Origin: Prochlorococcaceae cyanobacterium jk18x22bins.40
GTDB taxonomy: Bacteria > Cyanobacteriota > Cyanobacteriia > PCC-6307 > Cyanobiaceae
Assembly: GCA_022826155.1 (NCBI GenBank)
Contig: JAJDVL010000002.1
Location: 1-53,163, forward strand
Length of the DNA stretch: 53,163 nucleotides
Direction of reading: 5' to 3'
The notes under the pieces were generated by a model. The model had not been told where the DNA came from. It worked only from the letters and a program-made list of their open reading frames with translations, and searched no databases. The stretch's first letter is position 1. Each line of letters opens with the position of its first letter. The position numbers and the translations under genes are program-made. This document shows positions 29,833 to 52,300 of this stretch, piece after piece.

Positions 29833-30528
29833 TTAGTTGCTTGCCTCGCCCTTCAGGAAACCTGCCGCCGTGAAATGGCCCAGGCCCACCGCGGCGCTGG
29901 TGGTGGAATCCTCCTTGCCCTGGCTGAGGCGAACCGTCACCACTCCGGTGGCAGGCTCCATGCAGACGGACAAGGGGAGAGCAAAGGAGTTGCCCACCTC
30001 CATGCCCCTGGCTACAGGGCATTGCTGCCATGGGGTTTCCGGAGGCTGGAGCCCGTCAATGAGCACCCGGCTCAAGAAAGATTTCTTGCTCCATATCCCC
30101 TGTTTGGTGAAGGCCGGTCCACAGCGCATCAGCACACGGCTGGCCCAGATGCTGGAGGGGGGGGGACCCAGGGCATAGGTGATCGGCCCGGCTTTGGTGG
30201 CAATCACCAACACCGGCCGGCGCTGACGCATGGAACAGCGGTGCTTGGCCAGACCTGGATCCAGCAACACCTTGTCCCCCTGGATCAAGTCGTGGCGGAT
30301 CAGATCCAAGGCCCGCTCCCGCTCCTGCCGCTGCCGCCAACGCTCCGCCATGCGCCCCACCAACTGCCCGTCCGCCAGCAGGGCGTTGAAGCACACCAGG
30401 GCCAGCCCCGAGGCCACCAGCAACACGATGAGCAACTCCAGCAAGGTGAAGCCGCTGGCGCGATCCTGGCCAGCACACCGCTGTCTGGCGCGGAGCGACC
30501 AAGGCCAGGGCCTACTTGTCCTTCTCAT
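29833..30528 (-). CDS. Type IV pseudopilin (PilW-like)
   Basis: A 231-residue protein with a prepilin leader ending RASG|FTLLELLIVLLVASGLA. Large minor-pilin type with an extended C-terminal domain containing Cys residues (HRCSMRQRRP, RCGPAF, QQCPVAR, VCMEP). ATG 30528 overlaps the end of the preceding gene by 17 nt, so translation is probably coupled. A nine-C run on the coding strand (30157-30165 as G) encodes three prolines in LGPPPSSIW. It is the last gene of a minor-pilin operon. Confidence 0.8.
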   Translation of the reverse strand: MRRTSRPWPWSLRARQRCAGQDRASGFTLLELLIVLLVASGLALVCFNALLADGQLVGRMAERWRQRQERERALDLIRHDLIQGDKVLLDPGLAKHRCSMRQRRPVLVIATKAGPITYALGPPPSSIWASRVLMRCGPAFTKQGIWSKKSFLSRVLIDGLQPPETPWQQCPVARGMEVGNSFALPLSVCMEPATGVVTVRLSQGKEDSTTSAAVGLGHFTAAGFLKGEASN

Positions 30529-40222: not shown

Positions 40223-40989
40223 TGGGCGGTATGGGCAACACGGCGGATCTTCAGGCACTCTTGCCCACCTCCCCGGAAGAGCGGCTCATTCTGGCGTTGG
40301 ATGGGTGTGACGGGGATGGGGCCCTGGCGCTGGTGGAGGGGATCCCTGGGTTGTGCTGGGTGAAGGTGGGTTTGGAGCTATTCATCAGCGCGGGGCCTGC
40401 CATTGTGACGCAACTGCGTAGCCGTGGCCTTCAGGTGTTTCTGGATCTCAAGTTTCATGACATTCCCGCCACCATGGCTGGAGCCTGCCGCCGTGTCGCC
40501 CGGCTTGGAGCCGGCTTGCTCACGGTTCATGCCAGCGCAGGCACGGAGGCCATGGCCATGGCCATGGAAGCCACCGCCGAGGCCGCCATGGCTGCCGGCG
40601 TGTCTCCCCCCCTACTCCTGGCGGTCACCGTCCTTACCAGTTGGCAACCCCAGCCCTTCCGCCAGCAACTGGCCGTTGCGGACCCCCTATCAGCCCATGT
40701 GGAGCACCTGGCCCGGCTGGCGGCCCAGGCCGGTCTCCGTGGCTGCGTCTGCGCCCCCCGGGATGCTGCGCGGCTCCACCACCAGCAGCCCACCATGGCC
40801 CTGGTCACCCCCGGAATCCGCATCCACCGCATCCAGGGGGACGACCAGGCCCGAACCATGACGCCAACGGAGGCCATGGCCACGGGTGCCACATGGCTGG
40901 TGGTGGGTCGGCCCGTGACCCAGGCCGTGGATCCCGGCCTGGCGTTTGCCCAACTCTGCCAGCAGGTTGCCGCAACTCCCGCTGCCTAG
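40222..40989 (+). CDS. pyrF: Orotidine 5'-phosphate decarboxylase
   Basis: Makes UMP in pyrimidine synthesis. The 255-residue product has the catalytic LDLKFHDIPATMAGACRRVA, with Asp-Lys-Asp residues, and ends in the phosphate-binding region ATWLVVGRPVTQAVDPGLAF. ATG 40222 uses the last base of the tyrS stop, so the genes are coupled. It converges with the autotransporter gene with a 4-nt overlap of stop codons. Confidence 0.95.
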   Translation: MGGMGNTADLQALLPTSPEERLILALDGCDGDGALALVEGIPGLCWVKVGLELFISAGPAIVTQLRSRGLQVFLDLKFHDIPATMAGACRRVARLGAGLLTVHASAGTEAMAMAMEATAEAAMAAGVSPPLLLAVTVLTSWQPQPFRQQLAVADPLSAHVEHLARLAAQAGLRGCVCAPRDAARLHHQQPTMALVTPGIRIHRIQGDDQARTMTPTEAMATGATWLVVGRPVTQAVDPGLAFAQLCQQVAATPAA

Positions 40990-43826
40990 AACCGGGTTCC
41001 GAGCCGGAGGCTGGCGGCATAGCGGTTGTCGTCCGAACCCAGGGGGGACGCGGAAATCTCTCCACCCAACGACCACCGGTTCCAGTGAACCACTGCGCCC
41101 AGACCCAGCACCAACCGGGTGCGGTCGACCTCCGAGCCGAGGCGCTCACCCGAGACCTCCACGACTGTCTCCCCATCCCCAAGCACCCGCTCGACGCCCA
41201 GCCGGCCCCGCAGATCGAGCGTCCGTTCGTCGCCGTCCCATGTGTGCGTGGTTTCCGTGACGATGCCGAGGCCAGCGATGGACTGCGCTGCCTCCCGGAG
41301 TGAAACACGGGATCCAACGGCGTCCTGGAAGTCGTCCATGGAAACCTCCGAGTGGGTCAACCAGGCCTGGGGCGTGACCGACAGATGGTCAGCCAGTGAG
41401 AAACGCCGTCCCGCTTCGACACCGATGGACCGGACCGTCGCACCCGCTCCATCCTTCAGGGACCCCCGGCCGTCCCCGCGCAGGTCCGTGTCGTAGCGGG
41501 TCAACGAGACGCTGCCGCTGGCGTAATAGCCGACGGCGTTGTTCCAGGAGATCCCGGCTGACCCGCCGAAGCCCGAAGCGTCAATCCTGCCGCCGCCCGT
41601 CGCTGCGGCCACGTCCGCCGAGCCGTTCACATGGCGCAGGGCGACCCAACCGGTCATGTTCTGCTGTTGGGAAAACCCGAACTCCACCCCCAACTCGGTC
41701 TCGAAGCGGTTGAAATCGTAGGTTGCACCCACATGGGAGTGGTCCGGTTCGTAGGAGCCCTGGCCACCCGAAACCTTGATCCACGCCGGTGAACCGGGGA
41801 TGCGCAGCCGCTTTCCGGCCGTATCCTCCCCTTGGTCCAGCCGCAGCATGAACCCGGGCAACGCCTCGTAGACCGCTGCACGCGGCGCATAGGGGCTCAT
41901 GAAGTCTGTCAGCTTGAACACCCGTCCCGCAACGACCTCCGAGGGCTGAAGGGATACGTCGCGTGCGCCGTTCGGCGCCAACGCACCGGTTGCACCCGCT
42001 GTCTTGTCGTGCAGGACCACGCCGTTTACCGTGATTGTGGTCATGCCGTCGTCGTTCCTGATCTCACCTGCGATTGCCTGGCTCGGCAGGCGATTGTCCA
42101 AGGTCACGTCGATATCCAACTCGGCCCCCTCTCCCTCGGCCCGCACGGCGACACCGGAGTCCGCGCCAACGCTACCCTGGGGGCCAATTTCGACCCGTCC
42201 GCCCTGGTAAAGCCGTACTCCCGCCCCGACGACCGGTGAGTCTCCTTCACGATCTAAAATGGAGCCGCCCCACACGCGCCCGTTCACGACCACGTTCTGG
42301 CTGTGGATTTCGCCGCGGGAGCCACCCGGCTCTTCTGTCGGGACCGATACGCCTGCGGGGGCCTTGACCGGTCCCGTCCTGTCGCCAAATATCCGGCCGG
42401 TGAGACCCAGAAGGATGCCGGAACTTCCCGGCCCCTCCCCTGTAATCCTCCCGCCGTCCACGTGAACATCGATAGCGCCTTCGCCCGAGAAGTTGAATGA
42501 CCGAATGCCAGCGACAGTCTCTCCCGTCGCCTTAACAGTTGAATCGTGAACCGTAATGTCAACGTCACCCGTGCCCTCGTAGCGTTGCCCCCCGCCAATG
42601 CCCACGGAACGGTCGCCGCTCACCTCGATATCCACGTCTTGGGCGGCTATGCTGATAGGGCCGCCACCGTCATGCACGAAGGCAATCCCGCCGGAGTCTG
42701 CGCCGTTTACCACTATACTAGCGCGCTGTACATCAACGTCAACGTCGCCCGTACCACGATGGAAACCAGTAATGCCGTCGACATATCTTTGCCCATGGAC
42801 CTCAATGTTGACGTCTTGGGCATCAACGGAGAGATTTCCCTCTGAGTTCTTCCCCCAGTAGGCATAGATAATGCCGTTCGAGTTTTGACCTCCGCGGACC
42901 TTAATGTCAGCATCTCGCACATGGATGTTGGAGTTGCCACGGCCAAGGTGGTAGCCAAAGACTGCGTCATTCGAACCTGCGTCGCCGCTAACGTCGATTT
43001 CCACTTTTTGGACATCGACGTCGACATCTCCGTTGCCACTGTGGATAGTAGCAACGCCAGCGACCCAGCGGCCATTGCTTTTGATGGTGGAGTCCTGCAG
43101 GACCACGTTCAAGTAGCCCTCACTGCCCTGATATCCAACGATGCCGCCACTCCACGCCCAATCCTCATCATTATAATTAGAAACGTTACTATCAATGGAA
43201 ATGTTGCGGACGACGAGATCATGGTCGCCGCTGAACTCCTGGTCTGTATCATAACCGTCTCCACGATAGGCATGGATAGCATGAGGGAGTGACCATTCAC
43301 TGTTGATCGAGAAGGAACCGCCCGAGATTTCCGTGCGCAATGCGCCCGACTTCCCGTGATGGGCAACCGAAATCCCTCTCCCGTTCGAAGTCACGTCGGC
43401 GGAAGAGAAGAACGAGATGTTGCCGGTGTAGTCCGCATCCGTCTCGATCCTGACGGAGCTGTAGAGGGGGCGTCCGGAGACGGTGCCGACTCCACTGGGA
43501 AACAACAGTGGGTCGTCGTCGGAGTTGTCGCGGTCGTAGCGTATGGAGAGGCCATCAATGAACCGGATGACGATATTGCTCCTGTGGGCCTTGGTGAGGC
43601 GATACACGATGTTGCCGTCCGTGGCCGCATCGTAGTTCGAGGATGAGCAGACGATTGGCGCCCCGGCTGCGAGCGGACCGCATTCTTCCTCTGCCCGCGC
43701 CGCGCCAAAGGCGCCGAGTACAACGGTCACGAGGATGGCAGCGGCGCCCAGCGAGGGCATCCTTTGCGCCTGCCCCAGCCGAAAGCCCTGCTGGTTCATG
43801 TGTGGAAGAATGCGACTCCTATTCAT
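40986..43826 (-). CDS. Autotransporter with beta-helix passenger
   Basis: A ~946-residue surface protein from ATG 43826; ATG 43799 is an alternative. It has an N-terminal signal (AAAILVTVVLGAFGAARA|EE). The passenger (~30-650) includes a series of ~40-residue repeats at about 230-465, with units such as GDVDVDVQKVEIDVSGDAG, GNLSVDAQDVNIEVHGQRYV and GTGDVDITVHDSTVKATGET, a pattern of parallel beta-helix. The last ~270 residues form an autotransporter beta-barrel (SPAWIKVSGGQGSYEPDHSH onward), ending YAASLRLGTRF with the terminal Phe required for BAM insertion. Such proteins are typical of proteobacteria and rare in cyanobacteria. No secretion partner is needed beyond Sec and BAM. Confidence 0.88.
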   Translation of the reverse strand: MNRSRILPHMNQQGFRLGQAQRMPSLGAAAILVTVVLGAFGAARAEEECGPLAAGAPIVCSSSNYDAATDGNIVYRLTKAHRSNIVIRFIDGLSIRYDRDNSDDDPLLFPSGVGTVSGRPLYSSVRIETDADYTGNISFFSSADVTSNGRGISVAHHGKSGALRTEISGGSFSINSEWSLPHAIHAYRGDGYDTDQEFSGDHDLVVRNISIDSNVSNYNDEDWAWSGGIVGYQGSEGYLNVVLQDSTIKSNGRWVAGVATIHSGNGDVDVDVQKVEIDVSGDAGSNDAVFGYHLGRGNSNIHVRDADIKVRGGQNSNGIIYAYWGKNSEGNLSVDAQDVNIEVHGQRYVDGITGFHRGTGDVDVDVQRASIVVNGADSGGIAFVHDGGGPISIAAQDVDIEVSGDRSVGIGGGQRYEGTGDVDITVHDSTVKATGETVAGIRSFNFSGEGAIDVHVDGGRITGEGPGSSGILLGLTGRIFGDRTGPVKAPAGVSVPTEEPGGSRGEIHSQNVVVNGRVWGGSILDREGDSPVVGAGVRLYQGGRVEIGPQGSVGADSGVAVRAEGEGAELDIDVTLDNRLPSQAIAGEIRNDDGMTTITVNGVVLHDKTAGATGALAPNGARDVSLQPSEVVAGRVFKLTDFMSPYAPRAAVYEALPGFMLRLDQGEDTAGKRLRIPGSPAWIKVSGGQGSYEPDHSHVGATYDFNRFETELGVEFGFSQQQNMTGWVALRHVNGSADVAAATGGGRIDASGFGGSAGISWNNAVGYYASGSVSLTRYDTDLRGDGRGSLKDGAGATVRSIGVEAGRRFSLADHLSVTPQAWLTHSEVSMDDFQDAVGSRVSLREAAQSIAGLGIVTETTHTWDGDERTLDLRGRLGVERVLGDGETVVEVSGERLGSEVDRTRLVLGLGAVVHWNRWSLGGEISASPLGSDDNRYAASLRLGTRF

Positions 43827-43906
43827 AAATTGGCTTGCCGATGGCGCGAGAACAAAGACAAACTTAATCTGCAGGGGAAATTTCTGCCCGAATTGTAACT
43901 TGGCTT

Positions 43907-44434
43907 TCAAGCCAGGTTGCGCCGTGTGGCCCTTGCAATCTGGGCAATGGCCTGGCGCTGGGCAGCGTCGTAGTTCCAGCGCTCCAGAAACGCCACGTCC
44001 GCACCGTGGCCCTCGGTTGCCGCCAGCAGTTGGTCGAGGCGTTGCCGGACGATCGGAGGATCCAGTCGGGTGAGGAGGGCCTGGGCGCGCCGTTGCACTT
44101 GCAGGGACCCTTTGGCCTGCTCCCCATGCCCCTGTTGCTGATGCTCAACGGCCATGGCGGTCCCCATGGCCAGGTTGCGGACCACCAGGTCCACCACCGC
44201 CTTCCCACCACGGTGGAGCTGCTCCACGATGGGGGTGGGAGGGTGATCCAGCAAGGGGCCAGGCCCTGCCAGGGCCACCACAAAAAAGCCACGGCGCCCA
44301 TCGGCGCTGGTCAGGAGACCTGCCAACTGCTGGGCCAGCGCCTCAGCGGTCATGTCGCCCGCCTGCCATTGCCGCAGCCAGAATTCTGTGCGGTTGATGG
44401 CCTCGGCAAAGGACAGGGGTTGCTCCGGGTGCAT
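43907..44434 (-). CDS. Conserved cyanobacterial hypothetical protein
   Basis: A 175-residue, mostly helical protein beginning MHPEQPLSFAEAINRTEFWL. Recognisable conserved stretches are RRGFFVVALAGPGPLLDHPP, VDLVVRNLAMGTAMAVEHQQ and VAFLERWNYDAAQRQAIAQI. As I recall, picocyanobacteria keep a similar gene beside era. Function unknown. ATG 44452 would add six residues; longer frames overlap the leader of era. A small hairpin lies at the 3' end. Confidence 0.75.
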   Translation of the reverse strand: MHPEQPLSFAEAINRTEFWLRQWQAGDMTAEALAQQLAGLLTSADGRRGFFVVALAGPGPLLDHPPTPIVEQLHRGGKAVVDLVVRNLAMGTAMAVEHQQQGHGEQAKGSLQVQRRAQALLTRLDPPIVRQRLDQLLAATEGHGADVAFLERWNYDAAQRQAIAQIARATRRNLA

Positions 44435-48785: not shown

Positions 48786-49000
48786 AATCGGACTGCCTGG
48801 GATGGGGAACGCGAGCGTCCAGCTTAAACGGTTGGGGACAGGGAGGGTATTGCCCCCTGTGCTCCAGCCTGGGCTGTTGCATCGGCAAAGGCGGAAGCGC
48901 CAGCGAAACCCTGCTGCGCCGTGTGCCGGACCTGCGCCGGCCCATGGAGCCCAGGTACAACCTGGCTGAAATACGGCCAACCCTGGTTTCCAGCTAAAAC

Positions 49001-49015
49001 CGCTACCAAGTAGCG
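49001..49015. repeat. Perfect inverted repeat CGCTAC-CAA-GTAGCG
   Basis: A 6-bp palindrome with a 3-nt spacer in the non-coding stretch upstream of the surface-protein gene. It is not followed by a T-run on either strand. Possible operator or hairpin; function unknown. Confidence 0.4.
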
Positions 49016-49215
49016 AACCGCTTGCCGTGGAAGCGCCCTGGCCCCATTGACAACCCCGTCTCCACTGGCTCAAGATATTTTCACCTGCTGATCAGCAATG
49101 GCGAGAAGAAGCAAAGCCAACGAGGGCAGACCTGAACAGTGGGTGTGGAGATTGTGCCAACCTCTTGCCTGCCCCCGTCCCATGTTCCGACTCACCAGTA
49201 ACTTAGTACTACTAT

Positions 49216-49227
49216 CCCCCCCCCCCC
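49216..49227 (+). repeat. Poly-C tract (12 C), candidate phase-variation site
   Basis: Twelve consecutive C lie 93 nt before ATG 49321 of the large exported protein. An ATG at 49182 reads into the tract. With twelve C that frame stops at 49245. Loss of one C (or gain of two) joins it in frame to the large gene. Gain of one C makes it end at TGA 49322-49324, overlapping ATG 49321. No other homopolymer this long is seen in the window. Confidence 0.75.
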
Positions 49228-49320
49228 GCAGCGCTGGCCTGCTGTAGGGGACGGAGCGAGGCGATGGGCAGGGAAGTCTGCGACGGAAAGGGCGGGCAGC
49301 TTTTCGCTTCCGGGGGCCGA

Positions 49321-52300
49321 ATGAAAGGAACCCTGACAGGTTTGCTCGGCCTGCTGCTGCTGGCCGGATGGACGCCGGAGGCCGCGGCGCAGACGCCCAA
49401 CGCCACGGCGGAACTGGTCCCCCTCACCCAAGGCCTAACGACGCTGCCGGAGGGTGCGGGGGTGACTTTCAATATCGCGCTGTCGAGATCCCTGGAGGCC
49501 GACGAGACGGTGACGCTGCCGCTGACCGTGGGGGGCACCGCCACCCGCGGGACGGACTACCGTCTGGTCTGCATCGAATCAGGCCCTGCCGGGGCGGGCG
49601 TCTGCAACGGCATCGGCGGCGCCGATCCTTCGATCACCTTCTACGGCGAGCATATGAGGGGCCACCGTGTGACGGGTCCGCTGCGGCTCGAGGCGGTCGG
49701 GGACAACACGGCCGAATCAGGCGAGACGGTCACCCTGTCGCTCGGAGGCGGGCCGACGAAGACGATCACGCTCCAGGACGCGCCGTCTTCGGTGGAACTG
49801 TCCTTCACCCAGGCGACCACCTCGGCGTCCGAATCAATTAACTTTAGCTTTATAGAACCGGTCCTGCGGGCGAGCGCCGCGCCGGGCGGTGACATCACGG
49901 TGCCGCTGGTCTTCACGGACACCACGGACACCACGGCCACGGCGGGGGAGGATTACACGCCCAGGACCACGGCGACGTTCGAGGCGCACGGCGGTACCAC
50001 CAACCCCGTCAGATTTCCGGTTCAGGACGACGCCCTGTGCGAGGGCGACGAGACCTTCCAGATAGCGATCGACACGACGAGGCTGCCGGCCGGCGTCACG
50101 GTGGGGTCGCCGGGCTCGGTGATGGTCACCATCGAGGATGACGACTGCACGGTCACGGTCTCCGGCGTCAATGATGCGCGGGAGGGCGAGGACGCGGTTT
50201 TCGCGGTGCATGTGGATCCGGCGCCGGTCAGGGACATGGCGATCGGCTACGCGGTCTCGGAGGATGCGGGCAACAGCCGGCAGTTCGTGCCCTCGGCAAA
50301 CCTGGGCGCCGGCAAGAGTGTCACCGTCTTCAAGAACAAGGCCTCGCGGGTGGTGCGCATCCCCACGATTCAGGCCGCGGGGGCCGACCCGGAGGGCCGC
50401 GTGGCGGTGACCCTGGAAAGCGGCGACCAATATACGCTCGGCAGCCCGTCCTCTGTCTCGGTGCGGATCTTCGACGATCAATACCCGGCGGCCCACGTGA
50501 ACTTCACGGGCGTCGCCAAATCGGTGAAGGCGCCCCTCTATCCGGGTTCGACGGACGGGAACTTCGAGGTGAACGAGAGCGCGGGCTTCATATGGGTGGA
50601 GCTGGAGTTGAGCCAGAAGCCGGAGTACACGACCACAGTCCTTGTCCGGGAGAGGAGGTCGGGCACCACGGCCACGCACGGCGAGGACTACAAACGTGGA
50701 CCGGTCCGATACGGCTGGATGGCGCATTTCGGCACCAGTCGCAAGACGCGGTTCAAGCTCCCGATCGTCGACGACGGGATCGCCGACGACGGGGAGACGC
50801 TGACGCTGGAGATCTGGAGGGCCCACACCGTCACGTCGCAGTTCAACCAGGTCGTCGGCTCCTGGACCAACAATGAGGGCGTGACCTACCCGTCGTATAG
50901 CGACGACGCCAACACCGGCGCGCTGGGGACCTACGAGATCACGATCCGTGACTACACGTCGAGCCAGGCGGGCGACGACGTTGCGGTGTGGCTGTCGAAG
51001 GACGCCTACGAAGTGACCGAGGGCGATGCGCTCCGGGGGACCGTCCACCTGCAGGAGCCGCGGGGCGCGGACACCACCATCGCCCTGACCGAGACCCGCA
51101 GCACGGCTACGGAGGGCACCGACTACACCGCTGGTCCGTACTCCGTCACGGTCCCGGCGGGCAAGACGAGCGCCGCGTTCACGATCCAGACCACGGAGGA
51201 CGAGGAGCTGGAGATGAACGAGACGTTCACGGTGCGGATCGACGACGCCAGCCTGCCGGCGGGGTTCGTGACGCCGGACGGGACCGGCACGCCGGAAGAC
51301 GCCAGGGTCACGATCAACGACGACGAATACACTTTCTGTTTCGACAGAAACAGCGAGCAGGGCGACGAGGGCGAGGAAGCGGCCATCGGGCTCACGTTCT
51401 CGCGGCCGCTGCCGGAGGGCGGGTTGTTCAAGTTCACGTACCGGAACCTGGGCACCAGCGACAGCGACTACACGCAGGTGAACGCCTACCCGGACAGTTT
51501 CTGGCTTCCGGCGGGGACGGAGAGGTACACGCTCAGGCTTCCGGTCACCGGTGACACCTTGTATGAGAACAACGAGCTTATGAGTATCACGGCCGATGTG
51601 CCGGCCCTTCCGCTCGGATACACAGACTGCAACATAGATTTTATCGTCAGGGACGTGAGCCCCGAGGTGGATTTCCAGGCCGCAGCCTACACGGCCCATG
51701 AGGGGCGGGACGCAGAGGTGGGGATCCGGGTGGTCAACAGGAATGACGGCAATCTCATGAAGCTCCAGAAGCCGGTCACGCTGCACATCGCGGCCACGGG
51801 CACGGGCACGGCGACCGCGGGCACGGACTACGCGGCGGGCCCGTGGACCCTGACCATCCCGGAGGGGGCCTCCAGGGGCGTCCTCAGGATTCCGGTCCAT
51901 GCGGATTCTGCCAATGACGACGGGGAGACCATCGACCTGGAGATCAAGCTGACGACCGGGGACGCCGAAGCGAATCCCACTCGTCAGCTTGCCGACCAGA
52001 ACGGCAACGTGGTGTCCGGAAGCCTCCATGTCCGGGTAAGGGATGATACCGATATGCCCAGCGGCGCCGCGACGGTGACGATCCAGAACGCGTCGGGGGC
52101 CCCATCGGGCACGCCAGTGGTGTGGGTCGAGGCCGGCCCGCAGGTGACCGAGGGCAACGGCGCCACCTTCACGCTGAAGGCCAGCCCGGCGCCCCTTGGC
52201 CCCCTGGACGTGAGCGTCCATGTCGGGGAAGCGGAGGTGTCCCACGATCTGACCGATCCGTTCAGCCAAATCCGGACGCATCTGGCCGAAGAGGACCGGG

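Follow-up and report, generated by a model that had tools for sequence, protein, structure and literature searches.

In the copy studied here, a run of twelve cytosines near the start of a giant Calx-beta gene is probably functional, as the tract prone to slippage in a leader for translational phase variation. It lies in the window, i.e., the whole analyzed stretch of 53,163 nt, which is contig C45 of a 1.99 Mb genome in 51 contigs (G000). The leader recurs as a cassette of ~100–300 bp ahead of giant ORFs with signal peptides, mostly those of Calx-beta proteins, and because its C runs differ in length between copies, bacteria of this genus probably switch surface proteins by repeat slippage. 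On balance, we lean slightly toward a broader reading for the genus, which includes sponge symbionts, namely a genome-wide contingency system in which dispersed cassettes of promoter and leader combine up to two stacked frame switches (a poly-C leader ORF and an octamer array, with heptamer or pentamer arrays in relatives). Such a system would control many genes of giant secreted proteins (Calx-beta, LRR and lipoproteins), diversify the surface in a stochastic manner against a background that lacks MutL, and be the first case of SSR phase variation to be described from the Cyanobacteria.

Reading frames around the poly-C tract

Positions of the relevant features are collected in Table 1. The tract, flanked by T and G, is the longest homopolymer of the window (the second is a G9 at 30157). 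The earlier note had placed a (C)12 run between ATG 49182 and ATG 49321; a recount gave exactly 12 C, and translation reproduced the frame outcomes it had listed for 11 to 14 C. At the assembled length of 12 C, the frame of ATG 49182 closes at TAG 49245 after 21 codons; with 11 or 14 C, it is open into the large ORF and adds 46 or 47 residues before ATG 49321; with 13 C, it ends at TGA 49322. Inspection of the window sequence also bore out that ATG 49182 is preceded by no SD-like site, which had been taken to weaken the coding model; since the other copies inspected share this trait, we do not count it against the leader ORF. A weak codon signature is provided by the dN/dS of this ORF over 10 codons (0.52 vs. 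1.63 and 0.83 in the other frames).

Table 1. Features of the leader region and the downstream gene, in window coordinates
Feature	Position	Strand	Basis
Remnant of the family promoter, degenerate: TGAACA (49133–49138) and AGATTG (49149–49154), spacer 10 nt	49133–49154	+	By-eye comparison with family copies
Conserved part of the leader cassette, window copy	49146–49256	+	nhmmer E 8.8e-21; BLAST to C10 and C19
Putative leader ORF (uORF) at 12 C, MFRLTSNLVLLSPPPRSAGLL*	49182–49247	+	Homologous leader ORFs in sister copies
(C)12 tract, proposed frame switch	49216–49227	+	Window sequence; 7–16 C in sister copies
Large ORF, at least 1300 aa, Calx-beta domains, open at contig end	49264–53163	+	ORF translation, domain search
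Signal-peptide-like segment MKGTLTGLLGLLLLAGWTPEAAAQ	49321–49392	+	Sequence; heuristic signal-peptide test

The large ORF has a Calx-beta match (E 1.8e-39), with Calx-beta domains in three stretches, and the upstream stop of its frame is at 49204. Its main start is probably ATG 49264, an in-frame codon with GGAG 7 nt upstream that had previously been overlooked, while no SD-like site was seen in the window sequence at the internal ATG 49321. With 49264 as the probable start, the ATGA coupling at 49321 formerly suggested for 13 C is unlikely to be the decisive state. The encoded protein, presumably located at the surface, combines the signal-peptide-like segment with Calx-beta domains; no anchor was identified in the available part of the gene, inside which the contig ends. 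A second probable surface protein of the window (40986–43910, minus strand, 974 aa) carries an Autotransporter beta-domain (PF03797, E 2.9e-24).

In the proposed mechanism, transcription would start upstream of ATG 49182, as sister copies suggest, and ribosomes would enter the short SD-less leader ORF and run into the C tract, the length of which would pick the exit frame. A tract of 11 or 14 C would make the leader continuous with the Calx-beta protein through the signal peptide; at 12 C, translation would stop ~17 nt short of 49264, permitting reinitiation at most; and at 13 C, the leader frame would pass 49264 out of frame. Sister loci would be under stricter control, since C10 offers no other standard start and an octamer array forms a second switch at C19 and at several loci of a genus relative (G004). 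Slippage in living cells, the site of the transcript start, a change of expression and a benefit are all extrapolated from these sequence features; the benefit may consist in a varied surface as met by host or phages.

The window copy is a weaker case for switching: ATG 49264 could allow expression independent of the tract, and the downstream ATGs make the non-open states leaky. It is conceivable, if unlikely, that leader and tract are a relic here, with constitutive translation from ATG 49264 (or 49321); tract length would then not matter, though sister loci might still phase-vary. Such a reading would draw on the in-frame ATG 49264 with its GGAG, on the signal-peptide Met at 49321, on the degenerate state of the ancestral promoter and on the closest paralog (C32), which has only C7 and an ATG of its own at the signal-peptide ORF; it has to contend with a run that still counts 12 C, although interruptions or a loss of length might be expected without selection, with an open frame that persists from the tract into the gene, and with two sister genes of the same genome that lack independent standard starts. 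The earlier proposal of tract-driven frame switching of a large secreted protein is strongly supported by the sister loci and needs revision in its start-site and promoter details.

The leader as a dispersed cassette

Six leader copies are present in G000, on contigs C45, C10, C19, C40, C32 and C38, of which C10, C19 and C40 were identified by search and C32 and C38 by reading the sequence; the C10 and C19 copies match the window copy at 81% and 84%, respectively, by BLAST. About 20 further copies occur in G004. The exact leader was found in only two of ten genus genomes, and a search of 61 genomes sampled from 59 genera across the family returned matches in G000 only. G004 (MAG Prochlorococcaceae cyanobacterium jk18x1bzbins.87) is very probably sponge-derived, since its name fits the MEGAHIT-assembled jk18x... 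MAG series from Ircinia sponges (PMC9531527); by its genus membership, G000 would also be a sponge symbiont. Of the 14 copies with at least 800 nt of downstream sequence, 10 are followed by an ORF to which a simple hydrophobicity test assigns a signal peptide. Two G004 copies (C96, L137, and C27, L139) have other neighbors, one preceding an IS-transposase-like ORF and one being interrupted by unrelated sequence, so that cassettes are also targets of insertions.

The family consensus begins with a promoter (TTGnCA-N17-TAnnnT) and a pyrimidine-rich 5' region, followed by the ATG of a leader ORF with the sequence M(H/L/F/D)xL...SN(S/L)VL, the C run, GCAGCGCTGGCCTGCTGTGGGGG... and ATGACATCCAACCTTGAGGCGGAGGACTGAATC. 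Next come the main ATG (M(A/V)KDSKAKG...), ...TTGACATGACnGCCATCAAAACTGCTATAAT and the octamer array, with an extension of ~60–100 codons, a signal peptide ending in A-x-A-Q and a large secreted ORF on the 3' side. The window copy is an abridged version, in which the alignment reaches 49256 and then goes straight to 49264. Leader ORFs with long C runs are in various frames; among the eight without, five share the frame of the main ATG (six if L140 is read from the family ATG), and two end in TGA ATC ATG, an arrangement that suggests translational coupling.

The promoter boxes of sister copies precede the leader ATG by ~30–40 nt, and a promoter scan of 48900–49400 gave no match to the sigma-70 consensus in the window. 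The idea, raised in the earlier note, that the tract may alter promoter spacing was rejected on both grounds. They also make a transcriptional switch at large very improbable, whether by altered spacing or with TACTAT (49210–49215) acting as a -10 box that abuts the tract: this hexamer does resemble a -10 box, and a second, unrelated class of poly-C runs also lies 3' of AT-rich TACAAT-like motifs, but leader copies that lack long C runs (L135, L132, L028) do not retain GTACTAT.

This second class, of unrelated sequence, consists of an AT-rich GAATTGTTACAAT-like motif, then C12–C16, followed by N-terminal extensions and signal peptides (G000:C38:5011, L080; G000:C47:37915, L084; G004:C33:3113, L086; G004:C65:180, L093; runs in the class as a whole, C10–C16). 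The proteins encoded behind these runs are an LRR protein at L080, one of unknown family at L084 and lipoproteins, among them the subtilase at L086, which has a Peptidase_S8 match (E 5.9e-30) and is in frame.

Variation of the C run between copies

At the same leader site, the longest C runs measure 12 (C45), 16 (C10), 12 (C19) and 7 (C32) in G000 and 14, 14, 15, 12, 9 and 7 in G004, each length being one assembled value per locus in one genome per species, so that the differences are those between paralogs. The C10 locus (L128) has a signal-peptide/Calx-beta frame devoid of ATG, GTG or TTG from its upstream stop, located inside the leader 5' of the tract, down to the signal peptide. Its leader ATG is joined to that frame by 14 or 17 C only, yielding 651–652 codons; the assembled 16 C is an off state that encodes 125 unrelated residues. 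With the window gene as reference, an apparent 1-nt deletion right after GALGTY splits the C10 Calx-beta gene, and this frameshift may mark a pseudogene, an assembly error or another switch.

A length-dependent RNA switch, in which the C run would pair with a downstream G-rich stretch, is hardly credible. The predicted fold does contain CCCC-GGGG pairing across GCAGCGCUGGCCUGCUGU, but it is no better than those of shuffled sequences (z -0.06), for which the RNA-structure model was rejected, and the G partner is variable or missing in other copies.

Octamer arrays as a proposed second frame switch

Between main ATG and signal peptide, the C19 locus and several G004 loci carry an octanucleotide array. 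Units of these arrays are GATCGCCG, GGTCGCCG, GATCACCG, GGGTGGCC, CAGGAACG, CAGGAATG and CAGGACAG, with 3–17 occurrences; the G004 arrays of 17 units (136 nt) extend to contig ends, so that they may in truth be longer; k values up to 141 were probably used for the assembly of this genome. Five octamer loci (L133, L129, L132, L135 and L140) are resolvable, as their downstream sequence is long enough and offers an open route. In each of them, the main ATG is connected with the signal-peptide ORF in exactly one of three phases, and the assembled phase is in every case an off state. The signal-peptide frames behind the arrays span 314 to >1705 codons, most of them ending at contig ends; a copy without an array (L131) reads through directly and is open for 896 codons. 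From the 3' side of the array (or the array site) to the signal peptide, the frame is kept in five copies despite indels, with segment lengths that differ by 3–38 codons. For the post-array extension, dN/dS is near 1 and uninformative, and purifying selection on it was discarded as an explanation on this account.

Other short repeats were seen near large signal-peptide-bearing ORFs of the relatives, namely a pentamer (ATCGG x7) directly upstream of the first ATG in G003:C20 (L187), a heptamer (GCCGGAT x8) in the 5' extension in G002:C38 (L188) and a C8 run near the 5' end in G002:C127 (L189).

Genome-wide C runs and mismatch repair

Pattern searches of G000, with each tract counted by its start, returned 9 runs of C>=10 vs. 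~25 expected under an i.i.d. model, 6 of C>=12 vs. ~2.5 and 4 of C>=15 vs. ~0.08. Three of the nine C>=10 runs coincide in their position within one repeated leader, so that chance is no explanation for the leader runs. The same count bears on a neutral reading, by which the tract would be slippage-prone 5' junk, or an assembly error, of meaningless assembled length. Homopolymer counts in assemblies can indeed be wrong, and several C>=10 runs of G004 lie inside coding genes (e.g., L081, L090), which indicates that the lineage tolerates such runs; we nevertheless regard this reading as very unlikely, given the recurrence of the run at one leader site across many copies and two genomes, and an array that does equivalent frame work at a second site.

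MutS1 was detected in all ten genus genomes (the G000 match has one internal TAA). MutL was found above the cut-off neither in these ten nor in the 61 genomes sampled across the family; its absence is therefore a background trait, and MutL loss was dismissed as a genus-specific cause. Such a MutL-less background would be permissive, in that slippage is permitted, and not specific.

Relation to known systems and significance

The leader system is a candidate member of SSR translational phase variation. Its repeat units (C1 and octamers) are not multiples of 3 and are located in the 5' coding part, and one phase of three gives the full-length product (11/14 C in the window, 14/17 C at C10, five of five octamer loci). 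The nearest parallel is the poly-G translational phase variation of the Neisseria pilC type (PMC5320596), in which a surface-protein gene likewise has a homopolymer within its 5' coding part and one frame of three leads to protein. In contrast to the pilC type, the repeat here belongs to a dispersed leader, which precedes a long extension ahead of the signal peptide; it is often followed by an octamer array as second switch, the host is a cyanobacterium, and the switching is a prediction. Neisseria fetA, a surface-protein gene, also has poly-C close to its 5' end; however, the fetA tract lies between the -35 and -10 boxes and acts on transcription (PMC5320596), whereas ours is downstream of the promoter boxes of sister copies. 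What sets the system apart is that its leader is dispersed, its switches are stacked, the pre-signal-peptide extension is long and the host belongs to the Cyanobacteria.

Cyanobacterial genomes contain short dispersed repeats such as HIP1 (GCGATCGC) and STRR heptamers. The arrays described here (e.g., GATCGCCG, GGTCGCCG, GGGTGGCC, CAGGAACG) differ from HIP1 in being mostly octamers tied to gene starts, and HIP1 identity was rejected since none of the listed array units contains the GCGATCGC core.

SSR phase variation has been described mainly from vertebrate pathogens and commensals. Our literature search found no clear cyanobacterial case of repeat-slippage phase variation and no paper tying Ca. 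Synechococcus spongiarum to phase variation, an absence that is not proof. A 2025 review of phase variation makes no mention of cyanobacteria (PMC11868660), and long SSRs track dependence on eukaryotic hosts, runs of >=8 being strongly avoided in cyanobacteria (PMC4060949). Calx-beta domains are enriched in Ircinia symbionts, in the context of eukaryotic-like proteins (PMC9531527); our targets share this domain, and the G004 MAG follows the naming scheme of that study, while no description of repeat-based control of sponge-symbiont Calx-beta proteins was found in the literature.

If the proposed switching is real, it would suggest that a beneficial photosynthetic symbiont, too, varies its surface to counter phages or the phagocytes of its host, which could be tested directly in existing sponge metagenome reads. 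A further warning is that the annotation of these genomes probably assigns wrong starts to many surface genes or lists them as fragments.
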